The notes below the pieces were generated by a model that was not told where the DNA came from, ran no database searches, and saw only the letters and a list, made by a program, of their open reading frames with translations. A DNA stretch of 64,000 nt from Paenarthrobacter sp. Z7-10 (GTDB lineage Bacteria; Actinomycetota; Actinomycetes; Actinomycetales; Micrococcaceae): NCBI RefSeq assembly GCF_026932795.1, contig NZ_JADPVH010000007.1:1-64000 (forward strand), in the 5' to 3' direction. Below, piece after piece: positions 43,606 through 59,282 of the stretch. A program made the position numbers and the translations under genes. How positions within the stretch are numbered: position 1 is the first letter of the stretch; each line of letters begins with the position of its first letter.

Positions 43606-43696
43606 CGCGCTGCACCACATTGAGACCGCAAACCCCGTGTCCCGGGCAACACGCCGGAGGTTTTGGCTCGGTTTCGCCGCAATGTGGTGCAGCGCG
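43606..43696. repeat. 17-bp inverted repeat element upstream of cysG
   Basis: CGCGCTGCACCACATTG (43606-43622) and CAATGTGGTGCAGCGCG (43680-43696) are perfect inverted copies. The 57-nt loop contains further pairs such as CGTGT/ACACG. It lies 9 bp after the stop of the ABC permease and 62 bp before cysG; it may end the transporter transcript or form a structured leader for cysG. Confidence 0.7.
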
Positions 43697-56495: not shown

Positions 56496-56921
56496 ATGAG
56501 CGACATGTTCCTGGACAAATTCCGCGGTCTCGTGCCCGAATATCTTGAGGAACCGTGGCAGGAGTCCGACGGCATTGAGCTGGCGGAGCTGGACGCAATC
56601 CTGGCCGAACACCAGCTGCGGGTGCCGCAGGTGCTGCGCGAGTTTCTGCATGCCGTGGGCAACTGCGAGGAACTGATGGAGGCCTACCACTACTTCTGGG
56701 ACCCGGAGGAGCTGGAGCTTCAGGACGGTTATTTGCTGTTCCTGGAGGACGAGGACGAGGCTTTCACTTGGGGATTCCGTGCTGATCAGCTCGCGGTTCC
56801 GGATCCGATCGTGTGGCGGCGGAACAATGCCAAGGGCAGCTGGGTCAGCGAAGAGGGCACGTTCAGCGAGTTCGTCTTCGACATGTTCGATTGGGTCTTC
56901 TCGGACGACGACGACGACTAG
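56496..56921 (+). CDS. SUKH (SMI1/KNR4)-like acidic protein
   Basis: A 141-residue, very acidic protein ending in a run of five Asp. The central part (LAEHQLRVPQVLREFLHAVG, then GYLLFLEDEDEAFTWGF) has the spacing of SUKH-fold proteins, which serve as immunity proteins to polymorphic toxins or as general regulators. The match is by eye only. GGAG lies 6 nt before ATG. No toxin gene is next to it, but a DUF559 gene follows on the other strand. Confidence 0.6.
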   Translation: MSDMFLDKFRGLVPEYLEEPWQESDGIELAELDAILAEHQLRVPQVLREFLHAVGNCEELMEAYHYFWDPEELELQDGYLLFLEDEDEAFTWGFRADQLAVPDPIVWRRNNAKGSWVSEEGTFSEFVFDMFDWVFSDDDDD

Positions 56922-56930
56922 CGTCCCGAG

Positions 56931-57019
56931 CCAACTTCTGACCAGTTTTCCTGGCGACACACCGGCAAATCGGGCAACACGCCGCGTGGATAAGTCACAC
57001 CGCGGCCAAAGATGGTCAG
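56931..57019. repeat. 89-bp direct repeat, copy 1
   Basis: This segment is about 70 percent identical (hand count) to 57992-58080, equal in length, with the ends best conserved (CCAACTTCTGACCAGTTTT and GGCCAAA...TGGTCAG). CTGACCA and TGGTCAG near the ends form a 7-bp inverted pair. The DUF559 gene lies between the two copies. Confidence 0.8.
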
Positions 57020-57052
57020 TTCCAAGAGCCAAGTTCTTCACCCCACAATTGG

Positions 57053-57892
57053 TCACGGACGCCATCCCCGGCCTCTTTGGAGCACGGCGGCAACCTCAGC
57101 CGTCATCCGCTGCGGATGGTGGACAACGTCGTCATAGAAATAGCGCAGGACCAGGTAGCCGCCGACGACCGCCATGTTGTCCCGCCGCCGGTCCTTCTTA
57201 ATGCTCCGGGGCTCAAAGTGCGTGCCGCCGTCGATCTCCACGACCAGATAGCCCTCCAGCAGGAAATCGACCTCCCCCACCCCGTCGATCCGCACATAGC
57301 ATTCGGTCCAAAAGCCAGCCTCCCGGAACAGCACCCGGGCAATTGGTTCCAGCAGAGAGTCGGCACGCCGCCCCACAAGGTCCAGCACTGCACGGGCGCC
57401 GCCATTCCGGTTCCCTGCCAGATGGCCGCGCAGGAATGCTTTATTGATATCCCCGCGTCCGACGGCGCACTGCACCATGGCCAGTGCTTCGAAGCGGGGC
57501 AGGCAATGCAGAGCATCGAGCAGAACGTCGGCCAGGGCGGCTATCGGCTGGATCCGGTTCGGCGGCAACAGGAGCTTTCGATGCGTCACCGCGGAAGGCC
57601 GGGGCAGGCCGTTGCGGCAGGAAAGGTGAAGTTCGGCATGACCGTGCAGGCACCAAAGCTGGTAATAAGGCGCAGCTGAGACGCACGTCAGAACGCCCTT
57701 GAGCGCGTGGGCCTGCAGGAACAACGGATCCGCCTCGGGCAGTTGGAAGATGCCGCGCTGGACGTTGCTGACGATGCCGTCACGCAGGGCCTGCCGGATC
57801 TGGCCGTCGGTGATGCCGCGCCCCATCAGCGATTGGCGGCTCGCGACACCCCCGGAACACTTCATCGCTCGGATAAGGTCCATGCCTGCCAT
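57053..57892 (-). CDS. AbiEi-like HTH plus DUF559 nuclease-fold protein
   Basis: A 279-residue protein. The N-terminal 90 residues (VASRQSLMGRGITDGQIRQA, RGIFQLPEAD) resemble the winged helix of AbiEi-type antitoxins. The C-terminus has a DUF559/Vsr-like PD-(D/E)xK core: GVGEVDFLLEGYLVVEIDG, then a basic helix. Such proteins are common in actinobacteria and poorly understood. ATG 57892 is chosen from domain content; no good ribosome site is seen and ATG 57883 is also possible. An open extension upstream to 58357 passes through repeats and is rejected. Flanked by 89-bp direct repeats. Confidence 0.8.
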   Translation of the reverse strand: MAGMDLIRAMKCSGGVASRQSLMGRGITDGQIRQALRDGIVSNVQRGIFQLPEADPLFLQAHALKGVLTCVSAAPYYQLWCLHGHAELHLSCRNGLPRPSAVTHRKLLLPPNRIQPIAALADVLLDALHCLPRFEALAMVQCAVGRGDINKAFLRGHLAGNRNGGARAVLDLVGRRADSLLEPIARVLFREAGFWTECYVRIDGVGEVDFLLEGYLVVEIDGGTHFEPRSIKKDRRRDNMAVVGGYLVLRYFYDDVVHHPQRMTAEVAAVLQRGRGWRP

Positions 57893-57991
57893 GGTGGCCT
57901 GCCAGAGCGCCAGGATCAGTGGGGAAACGGCTGGAAGTGGACAGCGGGCGCCAACCTGCTGGTTGTGCAGGGCCAGTCGGCTAGGCGGCTT

Positions 57992-58080
57992 CCAACTTCT
58001 GACCAGTTTTGCCAGCGACACGCCGACTAGATAGCCGACACGCCGGATTACAAGCTCATGAGTTGGCCAAAGGTGGTCAG
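57992..58080. repeat. 89-bp direct repeat, copy 2
   Basis: Second copy, same orientation, 100 bp upstream of the DUF559 start. It contains two CGACACGCCG-type cores. Both copies translate in the same minus-strand frame to similar peptides (DHLWP...RRV...GVS..KLVRSW), but neither belongs to a convincing gene. Confidence 0.8.
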
Positions 58081-58104
58081 ATCTCAGAGCACGACGGCGG
58101 CAGC

Positions 58105-58176
58105 GGCTGGACCCCGCCCCAACAGCCCGGCTGGACCCCGCCCCAACAGCCCGGCTGGACCCCGCCCCAACAGCCC
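58105..58176. repeat. 24-bp tandem repeat after the polyprenyl synthase gene
   Basis: Three perfect units beginning GGCTGGACCCCGCCCC, each 24 bp, end 2 bp before the polyprenyl synthase stop codon (58179-58181). A partial fourth unit runs into the gene end. They are in the 3' region of that gene's transcript. Confidence 0.9.
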
Positions 58177-58178
58177 GG

Positions 58179-59282
58179 CTAGACCTCGCGGGAAACGACG
58201 GCGCGGGCAAAACTCGCCAACGCCGACTTGACCTTGCCATCGGGAATCGGTGCCAGCGCTGCGACCGCATCGTCGGCCCACTGGCGGGCCACTGCCCAGG
58301 ATTCCGCGGTGGCTGGATGCTCCCGCAGCGCCGTAACCGCCGCGGCCAGCACCTCATCCGTGCTCAGGTCCCCGTCAACCAGCTCCAGCACCGCTGCGGC
58401 CGGCCCGTCCCCGGCAGCCGCGCTCCGGCGCAGGATCAGCACCGGCAGGGTGGGCACGCCTTCACGCAGGTCGGTGCCCGGCGATTTTCCGGAAACCTGC
58501 TTCAGACCCGTCACATCAATGACGTCGTCGGCCAGTTGGAACGCCACGCCAACCTTTTCGCCATAGTTCACGAGCACATCCTGGATCTCCTCGCTCACGC
58601 CGGCGAAGATCGCGCCGAGCTGCCCGGAGGCGGCCACCAGCGAACCGGTTTTGTCCGCGATGACGGAGAGGTAGTGTTCCACCGGATCCTCGTCCGCGCC
58701 CGGTCCGACGGTCTCGTGCAGCTGTCCCAGGCACAGGCGCTCGAAGGTGCGCGCCTGGATGCCCAGTGCGCGGGCGCCAAGCTCGGAAACCAGGATGGAG
58801 GCGCGCGCGAAGATCAGGTCGCCGGTCAGGATGGCCACGCTGTTGCCCCAGACCTCGTGCGCGGTTGGGGCGCCGCGGCGGAACGGCGCGGAGTCCATCA
58901 CGTCGTCGTGGTACAGGGTGGCCAGATGCGTCAGTTCGACGACGACGGCGGCACGGACCACATCAGGATGGGATCCATCCCCCAGCTGCGCGGCAAGCAG
59001 CGTCAGCAGCGGGCGGATCCGTTTGCCGCCCGCCTCCACCAGGTGCCGGCTGGTGGCATCGGCGAGCGGATCCGAATTGGCGATGGCCTCCCGCAGTTCC
59101 TTCTCCACTTTCGCCATCGACATGGACATGACCGGTCCCAGCTCCGGATCCGTGGCCACGTCGGAAAAGCCCTGCGGCAGCATTAACCCCGTGGCAATGG
59201 CCAGCGTGGTTGGATCAGGCTCAGCCGGATGGGGCAGGCCATGCCCGGCGTGGGTCCAGCTGCGGTCTGCGGAAGTAGTCAC
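58179..59282 (-). CDS. Polyprenyl diphosphate synthase
   Basis: A 367-residue trans-prenyltransferase that builds the isoprenoid chain, most likely for menaquinone. Both aspartate-rich motifs are present: LYHDDVMDSA and FQLADDVIDVTG, with GGKRIRPLL before the first. GTG 59282 overlaps the menJ stop codon (GTGA). Gene order menG-menJ-prenyl synthase matches the mycobacterial menG-menJ-grcC1 region, which supports a menaquinone role. Chain length cannot be read with confidence. Confidence 0.93.
   Translation of the reverse strand: MTTSADRSWTHAGHGLPHPAEPDPTTLAIATGLMLPQGFSDVATDPELGPVMSMSMAKVEKELREAIANSDPLADATSRHLVEAGGKRIRPLLTLLAAQLGDGSHPDVVRAAVVVELTHLATLYHDDVMDSAPFRRGAPTAHEVWGNSVAILTGDLIFARASILVSELGARALGIQARTFERLCLGQLHETVGPGADEDPVEHYLSVIADKTGSLVAASGQLGAIFAGVSEEIQDVLVNYGEKVGVAFQLADDVIDVTGLKQVSGKSPGTDLREGVPTLPVLILRRSAAAGDGPAAAVLELVDGDLSTDEVLAAAVTALREHPATAESWAVARQWADDAVAALAPIPDGKVKSALASFARAVVSREV

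Follow-up and report, generated by a model that had tools for sequence, protein, structure and literature searches.

The DUF559 gene in the window (the whole 64-kb stretch of DNA analysed here, contig C102 of the 3.98-Mb draft genome G000, which its gene content marks as a Micrococcaceae-like actinobacterium) is very probably coupled in function to the palindromic elements that bracket it. This coupling appears well supported at the level of sequence comparison by the two-sided flanks, the matching of arms across the gene, the dispersal of cognate arms, the co-occurrence of elements with the gene and their fixed spacing. We further consider it fairly likely that gene and palindromes work in a REPIN/RAYT-like manner, the nuclease recognising the arms and spreading or converting the elements at a low rate. 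We propose that a low-copy, vertically inherited nuclease, made of an AbiEi-type winged helix and a Vsr/EDxHD-type domain, would recognise both inverted arms, probably acting on the two of them as a dimer, and would spread or convert non-autonomous elements into intergenic gaps at a low rate while maintaining copies on either side of its own gene. Arms and DUF559 protein would co-evolve, and because they would evolve together each paralogue would tend to have its own arm sequence. That the protein binds the arms, dimerises and cleaves is inferred here, as is the way in which the elements spread, which would be by transposition or homing-like gene conversion. If this is true, the gene-plus-own-palindromes arrangement of HUH-type RAYTs arose also around an unrelated restriction-like nuclease, and a first function would be assigned to a common family, DUF559 with an AbiEi-type domain. 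Also, many paralogues adjoin their candidate target and would thus offer ready protein/DNA pairs for studies of specificity change in compact nucleases.

The DUF559 gene and its flanking palindromes

The features of the window that are discussed below are as follows.
43606..43696, minus strand: palindromic element with 17-bp perfect arms that belong to a different family (CGCGCTGCACCACATTG); covariance model 26.2 bits at 43612-43690
56496..56921, plus strand: SMI1/KNR4-like gene, a conserved neighbour on the downstream side and convergent with the DUF559 gene; named from sequence
56931..57031, minus strand: downstream palindromic element, 80-bp core at 56939-57018; covariance model 53.6 bits, the copy itself being in the training set
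57053..57892, minus strand: DUF559 gene, 279 aa, with an N-terminal AbiEi_4-like winged helix and a C-terminal Vsr/EDxHD-like nuclease
57992..58090, minus strand: upstream palindromic element, 80-bp core at 58000-58079; covariance model 51.9 bits, the copy itself being in the training set
58179..59282, minus strand: idsA-like polyprenyl synthase gene, conserved upstream neighbour; function named from the translation

The C-terminal part of the DUF559 protein belongs to Pfam DUF559 (PF04480), scoring 31.3 bits against a curated cut-off of 20.6, and G000 encodes just this one PF04480 protein. The N-terminal part matches AbiEi in PADLOC (E 8e-6), and AbiEi_4 was found in 8/12 DUF559 homologues. 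In an alignment of 12 diverse DUF559 homologues the residues E182, D209, E219, D221 and H225 are invariant, which we take to be the set expected of a Vsr/EDxHD-type nuclease active site. In profile searches the protein matched the endonuclease-like structure 3hrl at E 4.5e-7, whereas a mobile-intron protein, 3r3p, came up weakly (E 0.23); a single-sequence structure model had a pLDDT of 48.7 and was too poor to search with.

As the preliminary description had it, two copies of a repeat indeed bracket the gene in direct orientation, at 56931-57019 and 57992-58080 on the same strand. Their identity, estimated there at about 70 percent, is 72% over 99 nt and reaches 78% across the first 54 nt, and the gaps, given as 34 and 100 bp, measure 33 bp past the stop (57053) and 99 bp ahead of the ATG (57892). 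The 7-bp inverted pair at the ends of the copies is CTGACCA/TGGTCAG, and the CTGACCA-to-TGGTCAG distance is 82 nt in both; read on the reverse strand, the copies have the form CTGACCAnCTTTGGCC...GGCGTGT...GGYGTGTCGC...AACTGGTCAG over these 82 nt. With up to three mismatches allowed, AACTGGTCAGAAGTTGG occurs exactly twice in the 64 kb against 0.07 occurrences expected. The copies described as an 89-bp repeat are real, but the unit runs past 89 bp. It is a palindrome, with paired arms of 17-20 bp and a fixed 80-bp core between them that often contains GGCGTGTC; in the window copies one arm is shortened, its outer part being lost. A 24-bp unit is repeated three times in tandem at 58104-58189 of the window, in the stretch that separates the upstream element from the idsA stop codon.

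Most elements are 79-83 nt long when trimmed at the conserved TTT/AAA in the arms, and the core measures 79-82 bp in most covariance-model hits. CGTGTC or GACACG lies inside half of 72 element interiors, against 2.5 expected after shuffling, and the orientation of the two interior cores varies among elements. By inspection, a GTAG or CGTC tag at the foot of the stem is absent from the window copies; CGTCGTCG adjoins the arm in some copies of genome G034. No target-site duplication was seen in the orthologous gaps compared, which are too diverged to read, and no excision product of the elements was seen. In many Micrococcaceae the gap upstream of nrdHIE (loci L104, L106, L112-L116 and L119) contains GGCGTGTCG-N10-GGCGTGTCGC beside a TCCACA...TGTGGA (DnaA-box-like) palindrome; this GGCGTGTC double motif shares the element core, is without arms and may be unrelated.

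We surveyed the 18-kb regions around 41 DUF559 genes, with genes of the same regions as controls. A flank-to-flank similarity score of >=30 was obtained at 16/41 DUF559 loci and at 1/365 control genes (Fisher 9e-17), so the flanking position is not coincidental. For palindromes with a stem score of >=13, the counts were 15/41 DUF559 genes and 5/319 controls with one nearby, and 4/41 and 0/319 with one on each side. In most relatives the idsA-DUF559 gap contains a palindrome, the arms being different, and other families in the order have DUF559 genes bracketed in this way too. Where palindromes stand on both sides, the arms on one side match those across the same gene and not those of other genes (mean 12.9 vs 4.6; 0 of 100,000 permutations), and the own partner ranked first in 18/21 loci. 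The set includes loci from other families as well as a few related ones, whose kinship works against this contrast and not for it. Overall, arm similarity did not rise with protein identity (Spearman 0.02); a positive correlation was seen only among close homologues.

Dispersed elements and the resident DUF559 gene

Searching the full genome of G000 for the repeat, with blastn and pattern searches, we found six window-type copies, two in the window, three on contig C65 and one on contig C46. The genome has one further element, with other arms. The suggestion that the repeats are a dispersed element family is thus right; the hundreds of unrelated copies that would have made the flanking position coincidental are not there, the window-type copies in the genome being six. 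The three copies on C65 stand in a row and are flanked by catabolic genes, and the C46 copy lies between livF and an oxidoreductase gene. In these complete copies the inverted ends are 17-22 bp long, GGCTCTGRGAACTGACCA...TGGTCAGTTCYCAGAGCC. The three successive elements on C65 (L019 6803-7412) have repeated flanks and form 133-nt units and, since the flanks repeat along with the elements, a larger unit was duplicated locally; element pairs like this row occur also in L251, L256 and L282. Within the C46 copy (C46:17972-18060; L030 about 5000) there is a run of 14 G, a possible slippage tract.

The element near 43650 that had been likened to the flanking repeats is real and has the matching architecture, but its arm family differs from that of the window copies. 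Its arms (43606-43696) scored 12 against genome G003 and <=7 against ten other genomes, and resemble those of the second DUF559 gene of G003, which has no homologue in G000. Because the arms resemble this second family, the element looks like an orphan of a lost or foreign partner. Its orthologous site in G003 is a short gap without an element, and the downstream element of the window is likewise absent from the orthologous site in that genome.

A covariance model built from 12 elements was run on 45 whole genomes (E<=0.05). Matches were obtained in 17/25 genomes with DUF559 and in 0/20 without it, and, after the four training genomes were excluded, in 13/21 against 0/20 (p 1.6e-5), a comparison of genomes taken mostly one per species in which ancestry is partly confounded with gene presence, because the DUF559-free genomes come mostly from other genera. 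Eight of the 25 DUF559-bearing genomes gave no match, some of them having more divergent palindromes. Between 0 and 8 places per genome matched the model; most matches are dispersed, intergenic and 80-82 bp long, and many of the dispersed copies occupy gaps where two genes converge.

The arms of 39 dispersed copies scored 14.3 against the DUF559 flanks of their own genome and 6.9 against those of others (0 of 20,000 permutations); of the seven that scored higher against another genome, most did so inside genus g7, whose members share arms. Furthermore, some genomes with more than one DUF559 gene have more than one kind of arm. In G156 a second arm family (TTCCTGCTCG) was found beside the second DUF559 paralogue, the flanks of which were fetched afterwards, in G062 one of two arm families was assigned to each of two paralogues, and the paralogues of G183 differ in their arms; these assignments are to be read with a readable element beside some, not every, paralogue. 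The livF gap, which holds a CTGACCA-type element in G000, holds a same-length element with arms TTGCCCAGTTTCC in G001 and G004 (L307, L308) and half an element in G002. Such a change of arms at one site means that elements inserted there more than once or that the arms were replaced in place. Only one DUF559 gene (L175) was detected in G001, and the TTGCCCAGTTTCC arms of this genome were not found in the region fetched around that gene.

Alternative explanations

The preliminary description had proposed that gene and repeats may form a cassette, excisable through recombination of the direct copies. The direct orientation of the two copies and the lack of the gene in some congeners would suit such a cassette, but the order idsA-DUF559-SMI1-like-TRIC-like is kept in about 20/29 fetched loci from several genera, and the DUF559 gene at the idsA locus is, on this synteny, vertically inherited and not a recent cassette. 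Moreover, copies that are only 72% identical are poor substrates for homologous recombination, and the loci that lost the gene retain no single repeat. In congener G001 an acyltransferase-like gene stands where DUF559 would be, and in congener G002 a truncated DUF559 remnant follows idsA. The test for excision was negative because neither of them keeps an element in the idsA gap, and the gene-free allele with one repeat left behind was found in neither. We therefore regard the cassette as very improbable.

The main rival to a REPIN/RAYT-like system is regulation, in which the AbiEi-like winged helix would bind the palindromes as operators of its own gene and a small regulon, the nuclease domain having another role, for example as a toxin or repair enzyme. 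The AbiEi-type N-terminus points in this direction, palindromic arms would suit a dimeric regulator, and a regulator, too, would lead to arms that match the resident gene. But the elements flank the gene on both sides, many dispersed copies lie at convergent gene ends and not at promoters, a fixed 80-bp core together with duplication of whole elements exceeds what an operator needs, and the active-site residues are invariant, all of which makes regulation unlikely. A structured RNA, made from the palindromes next to the gene and guiding or neutralising the nuclease in the manner of an RNA antitoxin or guide RNA, would account for the covariation of the stems, where both sides changed in 8/11 arm pairs (in an alignment of sequences chosen as palindromes), and for the good folding of complete copies (z -3.5 to -7). 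However, the window copies fold, as DNA, no better than shuffles (z -0.65 and -0.91), an Rfam search of the elements gave no match, and the same arms recur at unrelated loci as well as on either side of the gene; we consider this explanation improbable. Improbable, too, is that some other transposase moves MITE-like or REP-like palindromes for which DUF559 loci are merely preferred landing sites. Terminal inverted repeats, intergenic copies and low copy number would agree with it, but no longer element with matching ends was found in the genome, a pattern search (<=1 mismatch) finding only the six elements and one single site, and the arm types track whichever DUF559 genes, paralogues included, the genome has.

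Comparison with known systems

Like MITEs, the palindromes are short, non-coding and intergenic and have terminal inverted repeats; unlike MITEs, their arms track a resident nuclease gene. A parent transposon with the element ends was not found in the genome of G000, and an ISL3-like parent, searched for via the inverted ends, was not found either. An identity as integron attC sites was set aside by eye, since the ends are without RYYYAAC/GTTRRRY cores. Nothing meaningful was matched in plasmid and phage collections. Scanning viral contigs for the pattern gave nothing, and scanning 85,000 genomes gave one Pseudomonadales match only, probably a chance one; since each species has arms of its own, relatives escaped this exact pattern.

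The gene itself is a member of the DUF559/MTES_1575 nucleases with an AbiEi-type wHTH, for which the literature that we found describes no repeats. Also, no published account of a DUF559-palindrome system was found among the open-access papers searched, and one may have been missed. The protein may be akin to EDxHD homing endonucleases (I-Bth0305I): its nuclease domain resembles theirs weakly in profile (the 3r3p match), and the active-site residues are much alike. The DUF559 gene, however, is not intron-borne; it resides on the chromosome and its palindromes are dispersed. A review (PMC3943268) describes EDxHD enzymes as apparently dimeric on targets of nearly 60 bp, and by analogy such a dimer would suit an 80-bp palindrome.

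The closest likeness is to REPIN/RAYT systems, in which a different repeat cluster lies beside each RAYT, there are as many repeat flavours as genes, and the RAYT genes are single-copy and vertically inherited, the repeats being more frequent in the presence of the gene (PMC3116915, PMC8049555). As in those systems, a vertically inherited nuclease gene is flanked here by palindromic repeats, dispersed non-autonomous intergenic copies are found together with the gene, genomes with several genes have a distinct repeat type for each (G156 and G062), and inverted repeats stand at a fixed spacing (79-82 bp in most hits). The differences are that Pfam gives DUF559 and AbiEi_4/MTES_1575 and no Y1 family, RAYT being an HUH/Y1 transposase, that the element is a single palindrome with an 80-bp core, that up to about 8 copies are present against tens to hundreds, and that, as judged by inspection, the window copies have no GTAG tag. 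In our reading the DUF559 system works like REPIN/RAYT but is not a member of it, because the enzyme family differs and the copy number is low. Whether it amounts to a second, independent RAYT-like kind is, in our judgement, evenly balanced: in such a kind a Vsr/EDxHD-type nuclease with an AbiEi-type reader would mobilise or gene-convert its own fixed-length palindromes across an actinobacterial order, and arm specificity would be renewed in each lineage, so that the same site would carry different arms in different species.
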